This document shows positions 665 through 23,257 of a DNA stretch of 28,174 nt, one piece after another. Made by a program: the position numbers and the translations under genes. Location of the stretch: contig OMIW01000125.1 in NCBI GenBank assembly GCA_900299205.1, positions 1-28,174 on the forward strand, in the 5' to 3' direction. Within the stretch, counting starts at the first letter, position 1. The number at the start of each line of letters is the position of its first letter. This stretch comes from Pseudomonadota bacterium (lineage in GTDB: Bacteria > Bdellovibrionota_C > UBA2361 > OMIW01). The notes under the pieces were generated by a model, which was not told the DNA's origin, made no database searches, and saw only the letters and a list, made by a program, of their open reading frames with translations.

Positions 665-1091
665 AATCGCCCTGCCGTCCTTTCCTAAACCCCAATTCAT
701 AAAGCGCCTCCTCCTCACGCCGCCGTCCTCTCAACCCCACAAGCCGCCCCCGGCCTGCTTAGCCCACCCGCTCGAAGTCTCCGTAAACTATGTTCCTAGA
801 GTTATGCTCCTTCCACCTTGGTGAGTGCGCTAAGGCGGTTCTCTGTAAATACTATCCACCTGTCGAGAGGTTACCCTGTTTTTCGTTGCTCCGGTCGCGC
901 TGAGAGGGTACCTTTGATCATGGGTTACGTACAGTTTCTGGTTGCCGTGCGCATAACCCGGGGACGGGGCTCCGGCGACGGCTGGGGGGGGGCGGTACAA
1001 AGGGGTGAGAGACTGTCGGAGGTGGGGTTGTGAAGAGTAGTGCGTGGGTCAGTATGCCGATACAGGGGAATTCTCAGGGATGGAGCGGGTG
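665..1091. other. Divergent intergenic region, 427 bp
   Basis: This gap separates the leftward partial gene from the rightward secreted-protein genes and must hold promoters for both. It contains several short G runs on the plus strand around 958-990. I could not pick out a convincing -35/-10 pair on either strand. Short frames in it have no signal sequence, recognisable motif or good ribosome site, and I treat them as noise. Confidence 0.4.
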
Positions 1092-1814
1092 ATGATGAGA
1101 GCGCGAAGGCATCTGGTGGCACTGGGAGTGGGAATGCTCGTTTTGTCCTCATTCGCAGAAACGGTCTCTGCGGAACCCCTCGAGGAACTTCTCGACGAAC
1201 GACCTTCTCCGGAATCGCTCGATTTTCGCTCGAAGATGGAGCGATCGGTGAATGAGGCAAGGGAGGCGGCGGGGCGGCTTTCTCCCCAGTATCCCGCAAC
1301 TATTCGCCATTTACGCTTTGAGGGTGGTGTCCCATTTGCCGATGCTCAGGTCTCGAAAGAGATGATGGAAAAGATGAAGAAGGCGGCCATCGAGCGGGGT
1401 AAAGAAACGTACAAGGAGCTGATAAAGACGGCGGAAAAGCGGGTGAAGGAGTGGGAGAGCCCACCCGAGTACGAAGAATGCGAATCATCGAACGAGGAGA
1501 AGATAGACTTCGCTCTTGAGGACCTCACCGGAGAGGAGCAGGTCGTCGGGGACATTCTTTTTCTGGCGGAGAACCCGCCGCTCAATTTCGAAGAAAAGTT
1601 TGGGGAGAACGTACAATTACAGGTACTGAATCAGAAATCATCTCCAGTAGCGCAAGGCTTCGCCGAAAGTTTACAGCTTTCCTGCTTACCGTCACGCATT
1701 CGACTGACCAATCGAGCGTTGTACCGGTATCAGGGCGATGCCGCTCTGGAGCGTTTTGAGTCGAAGGGGGCCGGTTCATCGACTCGGATGCCGACCCCGT
1801 CCTCGAAGAGGTGA
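1092..1814 (+). CDS. Exported protein of a putative conjugation/T4SS locus
   Basis: A 240-residue protein. The ATG at 1092 is chosen because GGAG sits 6 bases upstream and the product then begins with a clean signal peptide (MMRARR, a hydrophobic stretch at residues 8-21, cleavage near VSA/EP). An upstream GTG at 1044 would only add a hydrophilic extension. Residues about 75-115 are Lys/Glu-rich and probably helical (KEMMEKMKKAAIERGKETYKE). Near residue 205 there is CLPSRIRLTNRALYRYQGDAALERF, the most ordered-looking segment. The C-terminus is Ser/Arg-rich. I do not recognise the family with confidence. Two further exported proteins follow on the same strand, one of them TraU-like, so a periplasmic role in a conjugative or type IV secretion apparatus is the best guess. 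Confidence 0.65.
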   Translation: MMRARRHLVALGVGMLVLSSFAETVSAEPLEELLDERPSPESLDFRSKMERSVNEAREAAGRLSPQYPATIRHLRFEGGVPFADAQVSKEMMEKMKKAAIERGKETYKELIKTAEKRVKEWESPPEYEECESSNEEKIDFALEDLTGEEQVVGDILFLAENPPLNFEEKFGENVQLQVLNQKSSPVAQGFAESLQLSCLPSRIRLTNRALYRYQGDAALERFESKGAGSSTRMPTPSSKR

Positions 1815-1939
1815 TGTTGGATTTTGTCGATGTGGCGGGTCATCAGGGGTGTGGTTGAACATTTGGTTGGCGGCAGGGAGGGCCAGCGTTCACTGCGAGC
1901 TGAGTGAGGAGAGGCTGTGTTATCAGGAAAGGGGGCGTG

Positions 1940-3610
1940 ATGAGTGGCAGAGGGCGACCGGTGATTTCTCGGATACAGCCGATGGAGATGTCGCATGGGA
2001 TGCGGAGACTCGCGGGATTCTTCATGGGATCAGCCACCGTGGTGGGGGGATGTGCTGGGGGTATGGGTCGCTTTGCTCGGTCCCGATTTGGTCTTTTAAG
2101 AGGCCTAATGCTGCTGACTGTTTTAATATTTGTTTTTGCGACCCCTGGTCATGGAACCCCACTTAAGGATGAGGAAAAGCGGCTCAAGAACTGGCGTCTT
2201 GGCTACGGCAAAGGACAAGTTCTTTCGGGTGCCCCGGCATCGGTCAAAATAAACGACCAGAATTACTCAGGGTATCTCGCTGGTAACTATCTCGGAACGG
2301 ACGTCGCGAGCGGAATAGTCAATTACGGGATAGTTGATACGGGCAAGGAGTTTGCCAATTTTTTCCAATGCATGGATTTTCGAATAATCCCAGGATGTTG
2401 GTGTGGTTTTAGGGTGTTTGGAGTGTGCATCCCCCTTTTTCCCGCATACGAGTATCGAACACCAGTTTCTCGATATGAGGTAACGCGACAACCCTTCCAG
2501 AGCGATTACTGGCCCACCCCCATCATGGCCGTTTTTAGGGGGTTAAATCCGAATCCTGGCGTGAGCTTTCTCCTCACGTTTCTCCGAATGTCGGTGGTTA
2601 AGCTCGCGTTTGCTGTTCGGGGGGTCAACATAGAGTCACCCGGAAAGGAGGTGGAGAATGTCCTGAAAGCTGCCATTTCGACGGCACTCCAACCGAGTCA
2701 TGACGCGAGTGACAGGGGACGTGGTGCTGCTATCACGGCAGGGAGAGAGGCGAGCGTCAATTTACAGATGTCTCCCTTGAGGTTGCTGTCCGAGGTTCCA
2801 GGATTAAGCCTGATGTTGGTAAAGAGTCACATTACCGATGGGGCTCGGCTCAAGTTCATCCCGAGTTGGTCAGCCGATCCGGTGCACTTTCTCCTTTCCC
2901 GGGCGCCTGCGACCTCTCTATTCGTCATGCCGTTTTTCAATCCCATCTACGCTGTGATGGGTATGATTACCCAGGTCCTCAACCTCGGTGGGCAGATTAT
3001 CGGCAAGATCAATAACCTTGAGAGCACTTTCAGTAGCTCGCTAAAGATTACGACCGGTATGGCGGGTGATATTTTTCCAAAGACCCTTGATGCCGTCGCT
3101 CAGAAGGCAGCGGAGACTGCGGTTAAAAAGCTCGGCTTCAAGTTCCCCCAGCTTAAATTAACCCTTCCGAGTTGGTTTCCATTCAACCTTCACCTGAATA
3201 CTCTCTCGGAGCCGATGGCCGCGGTGGGAGCGGCTCTCCGGGTCGGGAAGAGTGATTGTAACATTCTTGGGTATCCTGACCTGCATGCATTGGGTGACAC
3301 AGATGGTGTCGGGGATGACCGGATGCAGTATTTACGGGGTGACGAGCTGGGCAGTTTCAATTGTGAATATCCGGAGCTCGGGTTCGAAGAATTTGGGAAG
3401 GCGAATGTCCTTGAGCGCCCCGCGAAGGTAATCACCATGTCACACTGGAAGCGGTACTCGGGTTGTCCACCCTGGACCTGTATCGATGGGTCCTGTCCAT
3501 TCGCAAAGATTGATAAGCAGGATCAGTGCAACCCAAATGTTAAGAGCCGTGACGATGACAAGATCAAGAACGCGAGTGTTCCTGGTTGGCCATGGGAAAA
3601 GCCTAAGTGA
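1940..3610 (+). CDS. TraU/ICE-type conjugation-like exported protein
   Basis: A protein of about 556 residues. The ATG at 1940 has the strongest ribosome site (AGGAAAGGGGG just upstream) but leaves about 40 residues before MGRFARSRFGLLRG and the hydrophobic stretch LMLLTVLIFVFATPGHG; an ATG at 2063 would give a normal signal peptide, so the start is uncertain. Shortly after the signal comes a Cys-rich block, CMDFRIIPGCWCGFRVFGVCIP, followed by YRTPVSRYEVTRQPFQSDYWPTP. This resembles the CMDWRxxGxCxW...VRTSxKVxHY pattern I associate with TraU-like and integrating-conjugative-element (PFL_4710/TIGR03756-type) proteins. Further Cys residues and HWKRYSGCPPW lie near the C-terminus, suggesting periplasmic disulfides. 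The family match is from memory of motifs only, and the protein is longer than F TraU (about 330). Confidence 0.6.
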   Translation: MSGRGRPVISRIQPMEMSHGMRRLAGFFMGSATVVGGCAGGMGRFARSRFGLLRGLMLLTVLIFVFATPGHGTPLKDEEKRLKNWRLGYGKGQVLSGAPASVKINDQNYSGYLAGNYLGTDVASGIVNYGIVDTGKEFANFFQCMDFRIIPGCWCGFRVFGVCIPLFPAYEYRTPVSRYEVTRQPFQSDYWPTPIMAVFRGLNPNPGVSFLLTFLRMSVVKLAFAVRGVNIESPGKEVENVLKAAISTALQPSHDASDRGRGAAITAGREASVNLQMSPLRLLSEVPGLSLMLVKSHITDGARLKFIPSWSADPVHFLLSRAPATSLFVMPFFNPIYAVMGMITQVLNLGGQIIGKINNLESTFSSSLKITTGMAGDIFPKTLDAVAQKAAETAVKKLGFKFPQLKLTLPSWFPFNLHLNTLSEPMAAVGAALRVGKSDCNILGYPDLHALGDTDGVGDDRMQYLRGDELGSFNCEYPELGFEEFGKANVLERPAKVITMSHWKRYSGCPPWTCIDGSCPFAKIDKQDQCNPNVKSRDDDKIKNASVPGWPWEKPK

Positions 3611-3761
3611 GGTTGAATCGCTTCCCCAAAAGGTGGCCTGTCCTGAATTTTTTAAGGGTGGGAATGGTAACGAAGGGTGGAGAGGGGCAAGATAAGCTAA
3701 TGAACGACAGAATCTGTTGGATCTGGGAAAACAACTGAATTGGGTACAGCCGGGGAAGAAG

Positions 3762-4571
3762 ATGAAACCGATCCGAGCATTATCGCCGAAGGGAGGGGCT
3801 GTATTGGGGGGCGCCTTGATTGCAGTCGTGTGTTGTCAGGCATTCGCGCAAGATTCGATGAAGTCTCCGGGCGATTTCTTCTCTCCTAATTTCATGAATG
3901 AGGAGCGCTCAGAGGAAACGAACAGAGAACCGATGCATACACCCTCAGCATCATCGAAAGAGAACCCCGAAGGGGAGCTTATTGACGGTCAACCTGATTT
4001 TTTTGGTACCCCGACCGAGGTGACACCGACCCCAACCCCGACAAAGGGGGCAATCGTTGGCGAATCTGAGCAAAAGGTGATATCGGTCAGTGGCTTTATA
4101 GCCGGAAAGTCGATAGGAGAGGCGCTTGTGGCGGTAGCCGAGATCGGACGATTTTTAAAGGATCGGGAGATTCCCGTCCGTCATTTTTCGGTAGTTTGCA
4201 ACGTTTTCGACTATACGAAAGCGGTGGGTGATTCGTTTAAACGGGTCGGCGAGAAGCCTGAACTTCTCGATGGATTCAACTGGATAGCTCCAAACCTTCG
4301 CATGATTCATGAGGTGCCAAAACGGTACAAGGTGACGCACTCTCCAGTGTGGTTGATTGAGACCAAAAAGGGGGAGACGATAATCGAAGGAGGCGCTCCT
4401 CCGCTCGAAGAGTTAATCAGCGAGCAGGGGCTTTTTGAGGTTCCCCAAGGAGGAGAGGAGGTGAAAGAGCTTCCCCCGCCTCCGGCGTTCATCGGCAACA
4501 CCTCCGAAGCCCCCGCGGGCTCGGCCACGCCCATTCCCTCCGTCATTCCCTCCCCCTCACCCTCTCATTAG
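3762..4571 (+). CDS. Exported thioredoxin-fold-like protein, possibly TrbC/TIGR03757-like
   Basis: A 269-residue protein. The ATG at 3762 follows GGGGAAGAAG at normal spacing; an upstream TTG at 3717 is much less likely. A signal peptide spans residues 1-29 (hydrophobic VLGGALIAVVCCQAFAQ). A Pro/Ser/Thr/Glu-rich stretch with TPTPTPT occupies roughly residues 30-105. The ordered region is about residues 110-225: VISVSGFIAGKS begins a strand-helix pattern, and YKVTHSPVWLIETKKGETIIEG looks like the cis-proline strand of a thioredoxin fold, as in TrbC-type and ICE TIGR03757-type conjugation proteins. There is no CxxC pair, so redox activity is unlikely. The C-terminus is again Pro/Ser-rich. It is the last of three codirectional exported proteins. 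Confidence 0.65.
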   Translation: MKPIRALSPKGGAVLGGALIAVVCCQAFAQDSMKSPGDFFSPNFMNEERSEETNREPMHTPSASSKENPEGELIDGQPDFFGTPTEVTPTPTPTKGAIVGESEQKVISVSGFIAGKSIGEALVAVAEIGRFLKDREIPVRHFSVVCNVFDYTKAVGDSFKRVGEKPELLDGFNWIAPNLRMIHEVPKRYKVTHSPVWLIETKKGETIIEGGAPPLEELISEQGLFEVPQGGEEVKELPPPPAFIGNTSEAPAGSATPIPSVIPSPSPSH

Positions 4572-5774: not shown

Positions 5775-5860
5775 TAAAGGTGGTCGTCGATGCGCTGGGG
5801 GGGCCTTCTAAAGGACACCGCATCCAGAGGGTTTTTCTTCTTGAGAGTATTCTCGTATGA
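5771..5860 (+). CDS. Short leader ORF 2, overlapping the tal start
   Basis: A 29-codon frame (MIKVVVDALGGPSKGHRIQ then RVFLLESILV). It has no ribosome site of its own, but it begins inside the stop of leader ORF 1 and its TGA (5858-5860) overlaps the tal ATG (5857-5859) in a second ATGA junction. This layout is that of translational coupling. The function, if any, is unknown. Confidence 0.35.
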   Translation: MIKVVVDALGGPSKGHRIQRVFLLESILV

Positions 5861-7005
5861 CAACTTGTTCGCCCCATATCGCTGCACTCAATAACGTCGG
5901 ACAGTCTATCTGGTACGATAATCTCTCCCGTGACGTGCTCCGCTCTGGGGAGCTCGCTCAGCTGATTTCTCGGGGGGTGTCGGGGCTGACGAGTAATCCC
6001 ACCATCTTTCAAAAAGCGATAGGAGAGTCGAGCGATTATGATGATGCCATTCGTGCGCTCCTGCCTCGATATAGCCCTCACATCTCGGACGAGGAGGAAA
6101 GGGTTGCTGAGCATGTTTGTGAGGATCTTTTCGTCGAGGATGTAGGGTCTGCTTGTGACCTTCTCAGGTCGGTGTATGAATTCACCGATGGTGGTGATGG
6201 CTACGCGAGTCTCGAAGTTTCGCCCACACTAGCCCATGATACTGCGGGAACGGTGGCCGCCGCTGAGCGATTGTGGGGCCGACTAGCGAGGCCAAACGCT
6301 ATGATTAAGGTGCCCGCGACTGAGGCCGGGATACCCGCTATTCAGCGGCTTCTTGCCCAGGGTATCAACGTTAATGTGACCCTGATCTTTTCAGCCTCTG
6401 TGTATGGTCGGGTCATGGAGGCGTATCTTTCTGCCTTGGAGGATCGGGTGGCGCGTGGTGAGCCAATCAAAGGGATCTCATCAGTAGCGAGTTTTTTTGT
6501 TTCGCGGGTGGACTCTGCTGTTGAGAAAGAGCTCGCGTCCCGGGGGCGTTCAGATGTACTCGTCGAGGTACTCGGAAAGGTTGGGATCGCAAATTCGCGC
6601 CTCGCCTACCATCGATTCCTCGAAACCTTTCACGGTGAACGGTGGGATGCCCTCAAGCGAGCGGGAGCTCGCGTCCAACGTCCTCTGTGGGCGAGCACGG
6701 GAACAAAGAATCCTGCATTCTCGAAGGTTCTTTATGTCGAGGCCCTTGCCCGGAATAATACGGTAAACACAGTTCCTCCGCAGACGCTCGAGGCAATTTT
6801 TGAAGGGGTACAGCTTACCTCGTCGGGAAGTGAGGGGTTAGACGAAGCATCTCGGGTGATGGGAATGCTCAGTGGAGCCGGGATCGACGTTGAACGAGTG
6901 CTGTCCGATCTGCAGGTAGCTGGGGTTGCAGCATTTGCGGACTCATATCAGGAGCTGCTTGCGGCGGTGAAAGAGAAGGTTGCGCGGTTGCGGGGCTCTT
7001 TGTAG
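5857..7005 (+). CDS. tal: Transaldolase
   Basis: Transfers the dihydroxyacetone unit between sedoheptulose-7-phosphate and glyceraldehyde-3-phosphate in the non-oxidative pentose phosphate pathway (cytosolic TIM barrel). The 382-residue length and sequence fit the longer actinobacterial/cyanobacterial-type transaldolase (TIGR00876-like). Visible landmarks are GVSGLTSNPTIFQKAI at residues 40-55, EVSPTLAHDT at 120-129, the Schiff-base lysine in NAMIKVPATEAG (K151), NVNVTLIFS, and TGTKNPAFSKVLYVE near 285-300. The start is the ATG at 5857 with GAGAG 9 bases upstream; it also sits in an ATGA overlap with a short upstream ORF. zwf and opcA follow on the same strand, the order tal-zwf-opcA seen in actinobacterial pentose phosphate operons. 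Confidence 0.95.
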   Translation: MTTCSPHIAALNNVGQSIWYDNLSRDVLRSGELAQLISRGVSGLTSNPTIFQKAIGESSDYDDAIRALLPRYSPHISDEEERVAEHVCEDLFVEDVGSACDLLRSVYEFTDGGDGYASLEVSPTLAHDTAGTVAAAERLWGRLARPNAMIKVPATEAGIPAIQRLLAQGINVNVTLIFSASVYGRVMEAYLSALEDRVARGEPIKGISSVASFFVSRVDSAVEKELASRGRSDVLVEVLGKVGIANSRLAYHRFLETFHGERWDALKRAGARVQRPLWASTGTKNPAFSKVLYVEALARNNTVNTVPPQTLEAIFEGVQLTSSGSEGLDEASRVMGMLSGAGIDVERVLSDLQVAGVAAFADSYQELLAAVKEKVARLRGSL

Positions 7006-7119
7006 AAATCTCCAGAGAGGTGGGGGGGCTTCCGCTTTGCCGAAATGAGCGGGCTTTTGTTGAGTGGTCACTGCGCGGTGATCGGAGGATGAACCAAGTA
7101 ATCAATGGGTGAGAGGGAT
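7006..7119 (+). promoter_or_regulatory. zwf leader, resembles the opcA leader
   Basis: By eye this spacer parallels the one before opcA (8653-8754). Shared landmarks are a TCTCC box just after the upstream stop, a GTTGAG block, TGATCGGAG versus TTATCGCAG, and AAGTAATCA followed by a GAGAGG ribosome site. It also contains two tiny frames (7045-7092 and 7089-7112) joined by ATGA. The repeated layout suggests a common regulatory element, but I cannot compute significance. Confidence 0.4.
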
Positions 7120-8652
7120 ATGGTAAATCCGTTTGCTGAGGGGGAAAATCGAACCCTGAAACCGCCTGCGACGGCGTTAGTGATCTTCGGCGCATCGGGG
7201 GATCTCACCAATCGAAAGCTCGTTCCGGCTCTGGTCAACCTTGCACAGGACGAATATCTGCCTCCCGGATTCATCGTGATCGGGGTAGCGCGTCGGTCCC
7301 TTACACACGACCAATTTCGGGAATCCCTCTGGGAAGGGGTTAAGAAGTTTTCCCGTCGGACGATTAGTCGTGAGGTGTGGGACCGTTTTGCCCAGTCGGT
7401 ATTCTATCAATCTCTTGATGCGGGTCGTGAGGAAGATTTTGTTGCGTTGCGACGGCTCCTTGAGGAGCTCGGTCAGCAACGGGGGGACCACTACAATTAT
7501 CTCTATTATCTGGCGACAGCTCCCCACTTTTTTGGACCTATTTCGCACAATCTGCGGGTCGCTGGCCTTGTTGCAGAACCGGTTGGAGGGATTCGAGCAA
7601 CCTCATTGATCGTGGAAAAACCATTTGGCCATGATCAGGATTCTGCGGCCGAGCTTAACTCCCTCCTCAGAGAGAGCTTCGCGGAGGAGCAGATTTATCG
7701 TATCGATCATTACTTGGGCAAGGAAACGGTTCAGAATATTCTTGTCTTCCGCTTCGCGAATGGGATATTCGAGCCCCTCTGGAATTCGCGGTATATCGAT
7801 CATATCGAGATCTCGGTTTGCGAGGATATTGGAGTTCTCAATCGCGCCGAGTATTTCGATCAGAACGGAATTACGCGCGACATAGTTCAGAATCATGTCT
7901 TGCAGATGCTCTCTCTTCTCTGCATCGAGCCACCAATATCACTTTCTGATGCTGATAGTATTCGGAACGAAAAGGTAAAAGTATTGCGACTCATTCGGCG
8001 GATGACTCCAGATGAGGTCGCTCTCAACACCGTACGCGCGCAGTATACCCGTGGATTTATCCAGGGAACCGCTGTGAGTGGGTACCTCGAGGAATCCGGG
8101 GTCGCGCATCACAGTACGACCGAGACCTTTGTGGCGCTTCAGTTCGAGGTTGATAACTGGCGATGGGCGGGAGTCCCTATTTACGTACGGGTTGGGAAAC
8201 GGCTACCCAAACGGATCACTGAGATATCGGTTTTTTTCAAGGAGGCACCTCTGTCGCTCTTCAAGGGGCGACAGATCGATGAACTCCCCCAGAATGTGCT
8301 GACGATTCAGGTACAGCCAACCGAGGGAATCTCGCTTTCAGTGAACTCAAAGCCTCCTGGTCCGCGGATGCGTGTGCGGCGGGTGGAGATGGATTTTAAT
8401 TACGATCACTCGTTTGGGGTTGCGTCTCCCGAGGCGTATGAGCGATTGCTGCTCGATGCGATGAAGGGAGATGCGACGCTTTTCACCCGGAACGATGAGA
8501 TTGAGGAGGCGTGGAATCTTCTGGCACCCCTCTTTGAGGCATGGGAATCAGATCGGGCACCGCAGCTTTATAGCTACGAGGCTGGATCGTGGGGTCCTGC
8601 GGAAGCGGCTGCCTTACTGAGGAAGCGGGGTCATACCTGGCGGCGGTTGTAG
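7120..8652 (+). CDS. zwf: Glucose-6-phosphate 1-dehydrogenase
   Basis: Oxidises glucose-6-phosphate to 6-phosphogluconolactone with reduction of NADP+, the entry step of the oxidative pentose phosphate pathway. About 510 residues, normal for the family. The N-terminal Rossmann fold carries GASGDLTNRK (about residues 24-33). The active-site signature RIDHYLGKETVQN is near residue 195, and EKPFGHD and the NSRYIDHIEI region are intact, as is GVPIYVRVGKRLPKR. An ATG at 7105 is also possible; 7120 is preferred because its GAGAGG spacing matches the opcA start. It lies between tal and opcA, and the OpcA-like product is the expected assembly partner. Confidence 0.95.
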   Translation: MVNPFAEGENRTLKPPATALVIFGASGDLTNRKLVPALVNLAQDEYLPPGFIVIGVARRSLTHDQFRESLWEGVKKFSRRTISREVWDRFAQSVFYQSLDAGREEDFVALRRLLEELGQQRGDHYNYLYYLATAPHFFGPISHNLRVAGLVAEPVGGIRATSLIVEKPFGHDQDSAAELNSLLRESFAEEQIYRIDHYLGKETVQNILVFRFANGIFEPLWNSRYIDHIEISVCEDIGVLNRAEYFDQNGITRDIVQNHVLQMLSLLCIEPPISLSDADSIRNEKVKVLRLIRRMTPDEVALNTVRAQYTRGFIQGTAVSGYLEESGVAHHSTTETFVALQFEVDNWRWAGVPIYVRVGKRLPKRITEISVFFKEAPLSLFKGRQIDELPQNVLTIQVQPTEGISLSVNSKPPGPRMRVRRVEMDFNYDHSFGVASPEAYERLLLDAMKGDATLFTRNDEIEEAWNLLAPLFEAWESDRAPQLYSYEAGSWGPAEAAALLRKRGHTWRRL

Positions 8653-8754
8653 GAGTCTCCCCGGATTAGGGATTGCGGTTTCCATCGCGTCGTTGAGGTA
8701 GTGGTGTTATCGCAGAAAATCACCGGGCAGAAGTAATCATTGGGAGAGGCACCT
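8653..8754 (+). promoter_or_regulatory. opcA leader, resembles the zwf leader
   Basis: A 102-bp spacer between zwf and opcA that shares GTTGAG, an ATCG-AG block, AAGTAATCA and the GGGAGAGG ribosome site with the spacer before zwf. The spacer before the downstream SDR (9826-9951) shares only GAGTCTC and GGGAGAGG. This may be a processing or regulatory element within the operon. Confidence 0.35.
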
Positions 8755-9825
8755 ATGGCGATTGTCATTCCATCAGTGTGTGTAGAGATGGGTCAACTGG
8801 GCTCGGCACTGTCCCGCGCAGTGCGTTCGATTGAGGAACTAGGTTATCTTCGTGCCGCCCACTCGAATCTTCTCGTTTTTCATCACGACCTCGGGTCTGA
8901 TGAGTTGGGAAAATGGATAGATTCCCTCACCTTGGTAAATCCGAGTCGAGTTTTTGTAATATCGGTCAAGGATGATGCGGCGGATATATCGCTTGATGTT
9001 GGTGGGAGGTGTCATCGGGTCTCTCCCTCAGTTATCCTTTGCTCTGAGGTCGCTCAGATTACCGTTCCTCGTCACCGCATTGCGGAGCTACCCAGCGTTT
9101 TGCGAGCCCATATGTTGTCGGGAGCGCGAATTGAGGCTGTTATCTTACAGGAGTCGATTGCCGATTGGGTTGAACATCTCACCGGGGCTTTGGCGCAGAC
9201 GGTCTACCTCGATAGTCGGGTAACTGCGGGTGCGGCTCAGGCGGTCCCGCGATTCTGGTACCGAAAGGAGCGGGTCATTGATTGTGCATGGATGTGGCTC
9301 ACCCCCTGGCGTGACAGTATCAAGCAGGCGTTCGATAGGGTCGATTTGCGGGAGCGGCTCTCTGCAGTAAGCCGGATCGTTTTTCGCATGACGCCGGGCG
9401 AGGACGTATCGCTTCTCTCTCTTCTGCTCCTTCCCGGGTGGATTCAGGGGAGATTGGGGCTCGAGGTTCGGGAGGTGCGTGGGGATACAGTTGCGTTGGC
9501 TACTGAGAATGGCCGCTCCGTCGAGTTTGTCTTCGAGGGGGCCTCCTGCGGAGAGGGGGAGCTCGCCTCGGAGGGGATCGTGGGAGGAATCTCCTTCGTC
9601 GGAAGGAGCGGGGAGCCGTTCTTGCAACTGAGGCGATCAGGAAGCCTTCTTGAGGGGCAGTTTGAGGAGCGAGGATGTTGGGCCCCGCTGCGCCGTTACG
9701 ACGGGCAGGAGAGTCGCGAGTTACTTGAGCGTTACTTTTTGATAGGAGCCTCTATGACTCACTATCCCTCATCGTTTCGGAATGCAGTCCGTTTATTGGA
9801 AGGGGGTGTTTTAGCGCTCAGTTAG
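8755..9825 (+). CDS. opcA: OpcA-type glucose-6-phosphate dehydrogenase assembly protein
   Basis: A 356-residue protein beginning at the ATG at 8755 with GGGAGAGG upstream; an earlier TTG at 8740 is unlikely. The pattern fits OpcA: an N-terminal alpha/beta part (RAAHSNLLVFHHD, VNPSRVFVISV, CSEVAQITVP, with SVLRAHMLSGA), a middle portion with VYLDSR and a long helical ARVW-like segment (WMWLTPWRDSIKQAFD near residue 178), and a C-terminal beta-rich part. OpcA binds and allosterically activates or assembles G6PDH in cyanobacteria and actinobacteria. Position directly after zwf supports the call. No enzymatic motif is present. OpcA is uncommon outside those phyla as far as I know, which makes the context informative. 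Confidence 0.85.
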   Translation: MAIVIPSVCVEMGQLGSALSRAVRSIEELGYLRAAHSNLLVFHHDLGSDELGKWIDSLTLVNPSRVFVISVKDDAADISLDVGGRCHRVSPSVILCSEVAQITVPRHRIAELPSVLRAHMLSGARIEAVILQESIADWVEHLTGALAQTVYLDSRVTAGAAQAVPRFWYRKERVIDCAWMWLTPWRDSIKQAFDRVDLRERLSAVSRIVFRMTPGEDVSLLSLLLLPGWIQGRLGLEVREVRGDTVALATENGRSVEFVFEGASCGEGELASEGIVGGISFVGRSGEPFLQLRRSGSLLEGQFEERGCWAPLRRYDGQESRELLERYFLIGASMTHYPSSFRNAVRLLEGGVLALS

Positions 9826-18767: not shown

Positions 18768-19439
18768 GACTAATGGATATCCCTCGAGTTTTAGGGGAAA
18801 TAAATCTGTGGGAATACGCCCCGCCTGATGAAAAATAATGTCAAGTATCAGAGGGCGTTAAGGCTGTCTGGAAGATAAGGGGTACAATACCGAGAATAGA
18901 TAAGATTCAGCGGAGATGGATTCCGCAGCGGATCGCTACGAACGAAAAATATTGGCGCGAGCATACACGGTTTTTATCACATGAACCACTGGATGGATTG
19001 GTAAAAAATAATATTCGGATTTGGGTATCCCGGGGCGGGATGGTGTTTGATGGCTTCCTAGTTGAAGGATCTCGTTTGAAGGATGGCGCTTGCCGTCAGG
19101 TGCCTTTCCGGATTGGGCGAAAAGAAGATGCGGCTCGCGCTATGGACGGAGTTGAGAACGGAGAAGGTGCTGGCGGTGTGAGCGGTGGGGAACTGAGCGA
19201 GAATGCCTTGTGGCAAAAATGGCCTGAGGCCCGTCAAAAACCACGCCTTCGGCCCTCCGCAAATTTTGCAGACAGTGTCGGCAGTTTGGACATGGTGCTT
19301 GAGTCTTTTTTTAAAGTAACAGGAAAAAAGTTTTTCCGAAATACCTCTTTTGCTCTTTGTCTCGTGTAACACCCCGAAATAATTAGATCGAAAATCTGCC
19401 GTTTTTTTGGTGCCAAGGGGTTGACAGCCGTGGATCAAC
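18768..19439. other. Long divergent intergenic region between gdh and the sigma-54 activator
   Basis: About 670 bp without a gene I can defend. A -35-like TTGACA lies on the minus strand near 18838-18843 for gdh, but I see no matching -10. On the plus strand TACAAT at about 18892 could be a -10 with a poor -35. A frame from 19040 to 19369 (MVFDGFLVEG and onward) has a fair ribosome site but no recognisable content and is mirrored by an open frame on the other strand, so I leave it uncalled. GTTGA/TCAAC at 19420-19439 is an inverted repeat adjoining the sigma-54 promoter. Confidence 0.4.
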
Positions 19440-19455
19440 TGGCACGGGTGTTGCC
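19439..19455 (+). promoter_or_regulatory. Sigma-54 (-24/-12) promoter
   Basis: CTGGCACGGGTGTTGCC matches the RpoN consensus YTGGCACG-N4-TTGC at every conserved position, with GG (19441-19442) and GC (19453-19454) the required 12 bases apart. Transcription would start near 19466, about 40 bases before the ATG of an AAA+ sigma-54 activator, so the activator may drive its own expression or be driven by another activator. Spacer and orientation are correct for the plus strand. Confidence 0.88.
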
Positions 19456-19505
19456 TTGTTGACGGTCGTCGGGATTTTCGATTTGGTTCTTGTTTGGGAG
19501 GCACA

Positions 19506-20648
19506 ATGGGTCTGGCAGAGTTCGAGAGCGGAAAGGGAGTGGCTGATCGGTCAGGCATTCGAAGCGGAAAAACTCAGGTGTCGTTCATGGGAATGGCGAG
19601 CCAGTGTGAAGATATGCACCGCATCTTTTCCATCATTCAACGCGTTGCAAGCACGAGCTCAACGGTCCTGATATTGGGCGAAAGTGGCACCGGAAAAGAA
19701 TTAGTCGCCCGAGCAATCCACAAAGCAAGTGGTCGATCTGGCAAGTTAGTGCCGGTAAATTGTGGAGCGATTCCGGAGGATATCCTCGAAAGCGAGCTTT
19801 TTGGTCACGAACGGGGCGCATTCACGGGTGCGGTCACCTCAAAGGTAGGGCGTTTTCAGCTTGCCGATGGAGGAACCATCTTTCTCGATGAGATCGGAGA
19901 GATGAGCCCAAAGCTGCAAGTGAAGCTGCTTCGAGTTTTGCAGGAGCGAAAGATTGACCCGGTTGGGTCAACCCGTTCAGTCGACGTGAACGTAAGGGTG
20001 GTCGCTGCGACTCATAGAGACCTGCGCGAAGAGGTCCGTCAGGGTCGTTTCCGAGAGGATCTCTTCTATCGGCTGCACGTAGTACCAATTTCTCTCCCCC
20101 CCCTTCGGATGCGAGGAAACGATGCTGTATTGCTTGCCCAGTCGTTTATTGATGGAGCCTGCCGTCAGAGTGGCAGAGAGCTCAAGGTGTTCTCTGATTG
20201 CGCTACAGAGTCTCTTTTGCGCTACGAATGGCCCGGCAACGTACGAGAGCTCCAAAATCTGATCGAGCGGATTTCGGTGATGCACGAGGGGCGGATAATT
20301 TCGTCGGCGGACCTCCCTGATTATATGGTTGACATGGATTCACCGATAGCCACAGCTACCTCGACTGAATCCGCTGAAAGAGGGGAACATCCGGCCGGTT
20401 TTGTGCTTCCGGAGGGTGGAGTCGATTTCAATGAAATGATCGATCATCTTGAGACGTCTCTCATCGTGTCGGCGCTCGAACGTACCGACGGCAATAAAAA
20501 AGCTGCTGCAGACCTCTTGCGCCTGAATCGGACAACTCTGGTAGAGAAGATCCGGAAGAAAGGGCTTGATTCGTCAGTTCCGCGACGGTTGTCAGAGAGG
20601 TTGGTCTCAGTATCATCCATCGCTCAGATTGATGGCGACATCGCATAA
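19506..20648 (+). CDS. Sigma-54 activator without an input domain, FleQ/FlrA-like
   Basis: A 380-residue bacterial enhancer-binding protein. GGGAGG lies 4 bases before the ATG at 19506. Only about 26 residues precede the AAA+ domain, which has Walker A GESGTGKE (58-65), the sigma-54 contact loop GAFTGA (104-109), Walker [12 protein letters not shown] (122-132), [11 protein letters not shown] and the arginine-finger region [14 protein letters not shown] Fis-type helix-turn-helix ends the protein; [25 protein letters not shown] is close to the FleQ/FlrA recognition helix (RTTLVEKMRKxG). With no receiver, GAF or FleQ domain, activity must be controlled by expression or a partner, as with PspF. 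It sits directly behind a sigma-54 promoter and 12 bases before an exported TPR gene. Confidence 0.92.
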
Positions 20649-20660
20649 GGATTAGGTGGC

Positions 20661-21605
20661 ATGAAGGGCTCCTTTCTCCGAGATATTGCGTGCTGGTTTG
20701 TCGGGACCGCCCGGGCGATCATGCCTGTTATATCGATCCTTGTCGTCGCGGGGTTAAATAGGGAAGACGCGTGTGCGCAACACGCGATAGAGGTACAGCG
20801 ATTGCATGCCGATGGAAAATATCTGGAGAGCTTACAGGAGTATGATAGAATTCCGAAACGACGGGTGACGGTTGATGCAGTCGTGGCTGCTGGAAAAAGT
20901 GCGTGGGCTCTGGGTTTACCAACAAGAGCGCTGCAAGAATTTGATTCAGCTTTGCGAGGACGGGGGCTCGATTCATTGCAGCGTGCTGAGGTGCTTCTTT
21001 CGGAGGGCATCATCCATTTCCAGGAAGGTGAGTTAGAAGTGGCGCTCCACTATGCAGAGAGGGCCGCCGAAGTTGTTCCGCGCCCTCACCTGCTCCGCGC
21101 ACGGGCTCTGTTGCTCGGAGCTGAATCGCTGACTAGGCTTGGTCGGAACGCAGAGGCTGAATCACGATATGGTCAGTCTCTCGAGGAATCCACGGCAGAA
21201 GATCGCCATAATGCGCTGTTTGGACTTGGGACGGTTAGATTACTACTCGGCAAGACCAAGGAGGCACGAGAGGCGTTCGAAGCAATCCCGACAGAGAGTG
21301 AGCATGCCGCCCATGCGGTACGTCATCTCGCTGAGCTTGAGTTACGTGAGCGGAATGTGAAGAGGGCTTACCAGTGGTTGATGAAGGGTCAGAGGGAGCA
21401 TGCCACCTTTTTCCTTGATAGCTGGGTTCAATATGCGCTAGTCCGATGTGCAGTCGCTCAGAACGATCTCAATTTAGTGCAGGATCTGAGACGGGTGGCC
21501 AATGAGCGCTTTCCTCCCTCCGATGGGTGGGTCACCCTTCTTAATGCAGAGGCAGAGAGCTTTATCTGGAGTCAGACCAGTGAAAAAAACCGAGGCGGAG
21601 GCTGA
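20661..21605 (+). CDS. Exported TPR-repeat protein
   Basis: A 314-residue protein with a signal peptide (hydrophobic IMPVISILVVAGLN, cleavage likely near ACAQ/HAI at residue 40) after a longish N-region. From about residue 45 to 290 it is built of TPR-like helical pairs: VEVQRLHADGKYLESLQEYDRIPK, AGKSAWALGLPTRALQEFDSAL, LSEGIIHFQEGELEVALHYAERAAEV and ALFGLGTVRLLLGKTKEAREAFEAIP. AGGTGG precedes the ATG. It lies between two sigma-54 activators in the same direction, 12 bases after the first, so it is likely cotranscribed from the sigma-54 promoter. A periplasmic scaffold or sensor linked to the regulators is possible but not shown. Confidence 0.75.
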   Translation: MKGSFLRDIACWFVGTARAIMPVISILVVAGLNREDACAQHAIEVQRLHADGKYLESLQEYDRIPKRRVTVDAVVAAGKSAWALGLPTRALQEFDSALRGRGLDSLQRAEVLLSEGIIHFQEGELEVALHYAERAAEVVPRPHLLRARALLLGAESLTRLGRNAEAESRYGQSLEESTAEDRHNALFGLGTVRLLLGKTKEAREAFEAIPTESEHAAHAVRHLAELELRERNVKRAYQWLMKGQREHATFFLDSWVQYALVRCAVAQNDLNLVQDLRRVANERFPPSDGWVTLLNAEAESFIWSQTSEKNRGGG

Positions 21606-21709
21606 AAGTGGCGCGAAAAAGTGTGCTTTTGCTCGATGCCGTCGTGTGAAATGAAGGTATAGAATTAACCAAACTCTCTCGGTTGAGAGGTTATGAGGGG
21701 TGATACGGA

Positions 21710-23257
21710 ATGCCGCTTATCCTTGTGATTCAAGATGACCCGCAGATGCAGAAGGTGGTGACCCTTGTTCTGCAACGGGCAGGATTTCAGGTTGCCGCAT
21801 ATCCTGATGTCGAATCAGCGGTCGATCGCCTTAGTGATGAGGAAGTTCATGTGGTGATAGGGGACGCAGCGACCCCGACGGCTGCCCATCACCTACTAGG
21901 AGCGCTCAATGGCCGGTCTAGCAGGGTTCCCGTGATTTTGGCGCTGGCTGGCGCAACGGTTGCTTCAGCGGTCGAGTTGATGCGCGGGGGAGTCACGGAC
22001 ATTCTTACGAAGCCTTTTTCGGGGGACGATTTGGTGCGCGCCGTCTCACGAGTGGTGGAGGGGAGAGTCACCCCTGGGATGGTATCAAGTCGGCAATCCT
22101 CGCCCAAGCGGGCGATTATTACCCGCGATCCGCTTATGATTCGCACTCTTGAGATCGCCGGGGCGGTCGCAAGGAGCGATGCAACGGTCTTAATCCAGGG
22201 TGAATCGGGAACGGGGAAAGAGTTAATGGCGCGGCTTATCCACGATTCGAGTCCTCGCCAGCATGAGCCGTTCGTTGCCGTAAATTGTGCGGCTTTGCCG
22301 AGTTCATTATTGGAAAGTGAGCTGTTTGGTCACGAGAAGGGCGCATTTACTGGAGCTCATGCTCGAAAAATTGGGAAATTTGAGTTGGCTCATCGGGGGA
22401 CCATTCTTCTTGACGAGGTTTCCGAGATGGAGGTGCTTCTTCAGGCGAAATTGCTCCGGGTGCTTCAGGAGCGAGAGGTTGACAGAGTTGGGGGCCGTGA
22501 ACCGGTGGGGGTTGACGTGCGCGTCGTCGCGACAACGAACAGAAACCTCGCCGAAATGGTGCGCTCGGGGGGGTTTCGCGCCGACCTTTACTATCGATTA
22601 AATGTGATTCCCCTTACGCTGCCATCCTTGCGTAAACGTCCCGGAGATATTGCGCTTCTTGCGGAATATTTCATGCGCCAGATCCTTGGAAAACAAGCAC
22701 CGCCATTAACCCCGGATGTAATCGCAATGTTACAACAAGCACCGTGGCCCGGGAATATTCGTGAATTGCGAAATGCGGTTGAGCGAGCTGCAATTCTTTC
22801 CCAAGGAAACGTACCTCGCCAAGAGGATTTCTTGATGGAAATTAGTGATATTGAGAGTAATGAGTTAATCAGACTTACCCAGATTTCGGGAGAATTGTCG
22901 GTCGGTGATTCAGAAGGGGATGCGATTGTCGACCCTCTTCACCTGTCGGCTCCGCGCCCTTCAGAGCAGCCTTTATTCGGCTCCCGGCAGAACAGTTCCC
23001 CCCTGATGAGTGGACAATCTATCAATCGAGAGGATGAATCCCTCATGATTCGCTCCGGCATGACCGTGCACGAGGTCGAAAAAACCCTCATTCTGGAAAC
23101 TCTCCGGTCAACCCGAAACAACCGAACCCAAGCTGCAACTCTTCTTGGCATCAGTGTTCGCACCCTGAGAAATAAACTTGCCGAATATCGACTCCCTGAC
23201 GAAGAGGAGCACGGGGAGGTCCTCGATGTGGTTCATGCTGAAGCGTCCTCAGGGTGA
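21710..23257 (+). CDS. NtrC-family response regulator, FlrC/FleR/FlbD-like
   Basis: A 515-residue three-domain sigma-54 activator. The receiver domain (1-118) keeps the acidic pair D9/D10, the phospho-acceptor D52 (VVIGDAATP) and K101 (TKPF), but the usual Thr/Ser switch position reads LALAGA. The AAA+ domain has GESGTGKE (164-171), GAFTGA (211-216), GTILLDEVSEM and FRADLYYRLNVIPLTLPSLRKRPGDI. The C-terminal Fis HTH, with GMTVHEVEKTLILETLRSTRNNRTQAATLLGISVRTLRNKLAEYR, is typical of flagellar class regulators FlrC, FleR and FlbD. A linker of about 70 residues (about 385-455) separates the two. GAGGGG lies about 9 bases before the ATG. No histidine kinase is adjacent. A terminator follows. Confidence 0.9.
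   Translation: MPLILVIQDDPQMQKVVTLVLQRAGFQVAAYPDVESAVDRLSDEEVHVVIGDAATPTAAHHLLGALNGRSSRVPVILALAGATVASAVELMRGGVTDILTKPFSGDDLVRAVSRVVEGRVTPGMVSSRQSSPKRAIITRDPLMIRTLEIAGAVARSDATVLIQGESGTGKELMARLIHDSSPRQHEPFVAVNCAALPSSLLESELFGHEKGAFTGAHARKIGKFELAHRGTILLDEVSEMEVLLQAKLLRVLQEREVDRVGGREPVGVDVRVVATTNRNLAEMVRSGGFRADLYYRLNVIPLTLPSLRKRPGDIALLAEYFMRQILGKQAPPLTPDVIAMLQQAPWPGNIRELRNAVERAAILSQGNVPRQEDFLMEISDIESNELIRLTQISGELSVGDSEGDAIVDPLHLSAPRPSEQPLFGSRQNSSPLMSGQSINREDESLMIRSGMTVHEVEKTLILETLRSTRNNRTQAATLLGISVRTLRNKLAEYRLPDEEEHGEVLDVVHAEASSG

Follow-up and report, generated by a model that had tools for sequence, protein, structure and literature searches.

In the Pseudomonas and Vibrio models of flagellar gene control, sigma-54 drives the genes that stand below the flagellar master regulator. 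FleQ binds the consensus GTCaNTAAAtTGAC (PMC6120874), and the FlrA region at Vibrio cholerae flrBC holds the repeat GTCA-N6-TGGC (cited in PMC4641369). Autoregulation is already known as a prediction for one sensor-less activator of this kind: DVU2894 of Desulfovibrio vulgaris, which is FlrA/FleQ-like and lacks the N-terminal domain, is proposed to act on itself through the same box, yGTCA-N6-TGACr (PMC4641369). In Cereibacter (Rhodobacter) sphaeroides, expression of the enhancer-binding protein FleT needs FleQ and RpoN2 (PMC11999139). In this work, we analyzed a stretch of 28,174 nucleotides (the window) in which the master gene itself appears to be sigma-54-dependent and has its own predicted site. 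What is new is (i) that a sigma-54 promoter is conserved at the master gene, with a box fused to its -12 element, and (ii) that the operon comprises four genes and also exists in a kinase-less variant.

The activator (19506-20648, forward strand; 380 aa) was classified from its Pfam domains, its best match among solved structures and its position in a tree. Pfam identified only Sigma54_activat (PF00158, 236 bits; residues 32-195), the lid and HTH_8 (residues 315-351), with no match to an N-terminal sensory domain, including the REC-like FleQ domain; the absence of a sensory domain proposed in a first-pass annotation of this DNA is thus borne out. The AAA+ domain has Walker A and B motifs and the GAFTGA loop and is followed by a C-terminal Fis-type HTH (315-351), as in sigma-54 enhancer-binding proteins of the NtrC/NifA type. 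Walker A begins about 57 residues into the protein, and the N-termini are likewise short in nearly all orthologs of the phylum; in most homologs from other phyla about 170 aa lie ahead of it. The best solved match was FleQ (8p53, E 3e-92, activator residues 27-355), and the HTH motif RTTLVEK is common to both proteins. In the maximum-likelihood tree, the activator and its orthologs group with gammaproteobacterial FleQ/FlrA homologs in a clade supported at 99/95, outside of which fall the FlrC-like response regulators of the operon described below. Of the c-di-GMP ligands of FleQ, R144, R151, R185 and R334 (PMC10723142), only R185 is kept in the alignment, the other three being replaced. The activator is most probably the flagellar master regulator of the phylum, of FleQ/FlrA type and without the FleQ N-terminal domain. 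FlhG/FleN is a known partner of FleQ, and flhG/fleN is encoded together with flhBA in this genome. Constitutive competence of the sensor-less activator is plausible; partner proteins can restrain such activators, as PspA does PspF (PMC4641369). A sensor-less homolog was also observed in another lineage (L066, labelled Myxococcota); its gene too is preceded by a sigma-54-like site (9/11), and a further activator gene follows after about 2 kb.

Upstream of the activator gene, the sequence TGGCACGGGTGTTGC (19440-19454, forward strand) matches all 11 fixed positions of TGGCACGN4TTGC, as expected from the consensus -24/-12 element reported at first pass. With the C of the -12 element at 19454, +1 is predicted at about 19466; from there it is 40 nt to the ATG at 19506, so that the earlier estimate of about 40 bases holds as well; the coordinate 19439 then given as the start fits the promoter, the open reading frame itself being 19506-20648. 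A Shine-Dalgarno-like GGGAGG precedes this ATG; translation might instead begin with a TTG at 19494, though with lower likelihood. The 738 bp upstream are intergenic, and beyond them lies a divergent gene for a large NAD-glutamate dehydrogenase (PF05088, 15297-18767). Elsewhere in the window, three consecutive ORFs at 1044-4571 resemble by eye conjugative-transfer (TraU-like) genes, with no Pfam match, and transaldolase-like, glucose-6-phosphate dehydrogenase-like and OpcA-like genes stand in a row at 5857-9825, where the domain check covered OpcA only.

Pattern scans on their own would be compatible with a chance -24/-12 match and transcription of the activator gene through a housekeeping sigma factor: with two mismatches allowed, the window held four matches against 3.3 expected, which is no enrichment, and with one mismatch the genome held 29 against 25 in the control, which is no clear enrichment. 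The significance of the site therefore rests on its conservation. Orthologs of the activator (E<=1e-100) were found in 32 of the 45 genomes of the same phylum, and 28 loci had enough upstream sequence for a site to be sought within 450 bp before Walker A; at least 9 of the 11 positions were matched in 27 of these 28, with 0.59 expected in shuffled sequence. As the distance between promoter and start codon is variable and the sequence between them divergent, this conservation reflects more than close relatedness. It refutes a chance origin of the site, and since a consensus search of the region upstream of the activator also found no basal sigma-70 promoter, transcription through a housekeeping sigma factor is hardly credible. 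The 2.45 Mb genome encodes one RpoN and five strong activator matches, and contains two exact TGGCACGN4TTGC sequences, the one outside the window lying inside a 408-codon open frame. The consensus by itself did not yield an informative genome-wide sigma-54 regulon, most matches being inside ORFs. Besides the window site, only the flhB site on contig C127 is an intergenic sigma-54 site that has both a box and a closely following gene.

Ahead of the promoter, at 19412-19425 (forward strand, approximately -54 to -41), lies a FleQ/FlrA-type box with half-sites GCCA and TGAC, GCCAAGGGGTTGAC (box 1), which matches GTCA-N6-TGAC at 7/8 positions and whose half-sites are the reverse complement of those of the V. 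cholerae flrBC repeat. It is imperfect, and its distance from the polymerase is shorter than that of a classical enhancer. Boxes of this type, which equals the published FleQ consensus, are what the HTH of the activator would lead one to expect. The orthologs show the same arrangement: of 27, 24 have a box of at least 6/8 in the 70 bp that precede the -24 element, against a null mean of 5.5 and a maximum of 10. Gaps of other lengths give 5-12 orthologs. In most of the 24, the box starts 28-29 bp before the TGG of the -24 element. Judged from these sites, it is highly probable that the activator binds the predicted boxes, and very likely that it controls itself through its predicted own site at the sigma-54 promoter.

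A second box (box 2) overlaps the -12 element in most relatives. In 25/27 activator promoters (L150-L178), the G of the -12 GC is also the first base of an exact GCCA-N6-TGAC, so that the element and the box are fused as TT-GCCA-N6-TGAC; none of the 27 flhB promoters has this fusion. A TGAC is found 8 nt downstream of the -12 TTGC in 26/27 activator promoters. The 27 flhB promoters have none within 25 nt of it, an absence on which we rejected TGAC as a general initiator at the start site. Because the half-sites are constant and the six middle bases vary freely among the activator promoters, box 2 looks like a protein-binding site, and because it overlaps the -12 element, an activator bound there would be expected to exclude the polymerase. 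Repression from FleQ boxes that lie upstream of the start site and over it is described for P. aeruginosa pel (PMC10723142). The exceptions to an in-register box 2, which in the orthologs lies 41-42 bp from box 1, are L156 and the window. In the latter, the TGAC is 3 bp closer, box 2 matches only 4/8 in register, and a degenerate relic, GTTGCCTTGTTGAC (19450-19463, forward strand), matches 6/8 when shifted by 3 bp. Whether box 2 is a brake on the activator promoter is, in our judgement, an evenly balanced matter; the ancestral design was probably self-activation with self-limitation, or else outright repression.

In relatives, the activator heads an operon in the order activator, tetratricopeptide repeat (TPR) protein, histidine kinase and response regulator, which amounts to FlrA-FlrB-FlrC in compact form. 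The window holds the TPR gene (20661-21605, forward strand), whose product has a hydrophobic N-terminus and is kept across the phylum, and an FlrC/FlbD-like response regulator gene (21710-23257, forward strand). These genes are about 100 bp apart, and the gap (21606-21709, forward strand) contains no remnant of the HisKA/HATPase kinase gene that the relatives checked carry at this place. Relocation of the kinase within the same genome was rejected, the best match having 29% identity and 71 bits against 122-328 bits among full-length orthologs; as the assembly is fragmented (206 contigs, 89.75% complete), it may not include a kinase gene located far from this locus. The receiver of the response regulator has decayed (identity 0.36 versus 0.52-0.63 in relatives), with loss of the switch Thr and the MP motif and retention of the phospho-acceptor Asp and Lys, and its AAA+ domain is normal (mean identity 0.78). 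Loss of the kinase and decay of the receiver fit each other, and the cascade of the window species is likely to be phosphorylation-independent. An apparent absence of the activator in five relatives was traced to contig ends, as their contigs begin within or just after the activator gene and keep the rest of the TPR gene, the kinase and the response regulator. In several relatives small flagellar genes follow the operon: in L198, two of the products are by Pfam a flagellar rod protein and FliE, the operon adjoins flgB-flgC-fliE-fliF-type genes, and, by sequence, the same order continues into a FliF-like frame in L276/L278.

The same two elements recur at the flhB promoters, where a sigma-54 site of at least 8/11 is present in 28/29 (3.25 expected) and a GTCA-N6-TGAC box of at least 7/8 in 19/27 relatives, against a null of 0.9 and a maximum of 3. 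Several of these 19 boxes are perfect. These boxes lie mostly farther upstream or downstream than at the activator promoters. In this genome, the flhB-flhA-flhG-fliA cluster (C127, L199; 7345-12668) has an intergenic sigma-54 site at 7345 and two FleQ-type boxes at the flhB promoter, GGCAACCTTTTGAC and GTCAGTAGTCTGGC; no separate flhF frame was found between its flhA and flhG. A second FHIPEP (FlhA/type III export) homolog occurs on C55 (L200; 2096-4051), matching in two pieces of one frame. As FleQ/FlrA-type boxes stand both at the activator's own promoter and at the flhB promoters, the predicted flagellar control with self-regulation is well supported. It might still be argued that the regulon of the activator is not flagellar but concerns, for example, secretion or exopolysaccharide, and that its flagellar neighbors in relatives are incidental, given that no flagellar structural gene adjoins it in the window and that FleQ also regulates biofilm genes in Pseudomonas (PMC10723142). 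However, both this genome and the phylum at large keep the box and the sigma-54 site before flhB, the operon adjoins flagellar rod and basal-body genes in relatives, and the partners of the activator are FlrBC-like, all of which makes a non-flagellar role very improbable.

We propose the following model. Sigma-54 RNA polymerase would transcribe the operon from 19440-19454, and the activator bound to box 1 (19412-19425) would most likely drive its own operon, creating a feedback loop, along with flhBA and further early operons of the flagellum. Where the second site lies on the -12 element, as in most relatives, high levels of the activator should shut the promoter off. In this species, where that site is displaced, the kinase gone and the receiver decayed, control has for these reasons probably moved to the level of the activator and to partners such as FlhG. 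The first-pass annotation had predicted positive autoregulation or a cascade; it did not recognize a flagellar master regulator at the head of an FlrABC-like operon, nor the missing kinase. Autoregulation or a cascade is supported by the boxes before the -24 element in 24/27 orthologs and at the flhB promoters; the word positive stands only in part, as box 2 in the -12 element of 25/27 orthologs points to self-limitation, although out of register here.

As for the direction of the regulation, the activator probably activates its own operon. The opposite possibility is that it represses the operon and that another enhancer-binding protein fires the promoter, for example the response regulator of the operon, which could in principle act there. 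Several features of the relatives would suit such repression: the promoter is flanked by box 1 and box 2, whose spacing of 41-42 bp is about four turns of the helix, and 25/27 orthologs, but none of the flhB promoters, have box 2 over the -12 element and the start site, an arrangement resembling the repressing FleQ boxes of pel (PMC10723142), and the flhB boxes are mostly placed elsewhere. The window itself argues otherwise, since it keeps box 1 while box 2 is out of register, and the proposed alternative activator is encoded in the very operon that it would have to fire, with a receiver that has decayed here. Besides, FleQ also activates from near promoters without looping (PMC6120874). Overall, we consider repression of its own operon by the activator unlikely, and self-activation the better reading of the locus.

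Altogether, the whole is explained best, and with fairly good probability, by a FleQ/FlrA-type master regulator in a sigma-54 feedback loop, with a putative brake in its relatives and a species-specific loss. A bolder and more tentative view is that of a phylum-wide self-limiting switch: the -12 element would at the same time be one half of the operator of the regulator, a single sequence thus serving the polymerase as well as the shut-off of the promoter, and the window species would have a broken brake and a lost downstream kinase and thus an unbraked, phosphorylation-independent cascade. The locus would offer a clean and testable example of a protein that first switches on its own sigma-54 promoter and later restrains it, and the window species is a natural experiment in which a kinase and a receiver were lost and the motor domain of the response regulator was kept.

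Compared with the described systems, the locus shares with P. aeruginosa FleQ the AAA+ and HTH domains, which align over residues 27-355 of the activator and include the RTTLVEK motif, the GTCA-N6-TGAC box, targets of flhA/flhB type with sigma-54 promoters, and FleN/FlhG encoded with flhA. In contrast to FleQ, the activator lacks the N-terminal FleQ domain and the arginines equivalent to R144, R151 and R334, and its own gene lies behind a conserved sigma-54 promoter, in one operon with an FlrBC-like pair. The FlrA-FlrB-FlrC system of V. cholerae likewise combines a master activator, a kinase and a response regulator, and its flrBC repeat (cited in PMC4641369) has the half-sites of box 1 on the other strand. 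Here, however, the genes form one operon with an added TPR gene, and the FlrB-like kinase is absent in this species; because activator, kinase and response regulator share one operon, the master gene itself comes to stand behind the sigma-54 promoter. In the case of DVU2894, no conserved sigma-54 promoter was found near the gene (PMC4641369), and the part of that paper used here describes no overlap of a second box with a -12 element. The FleQ/FleT pair of Cereibacter also shows feedback inside a flagellar hierarchy; FleT, however, has no DNA-binding domain and is not the master regulator, whereas here it is the master gene that has the promoter.
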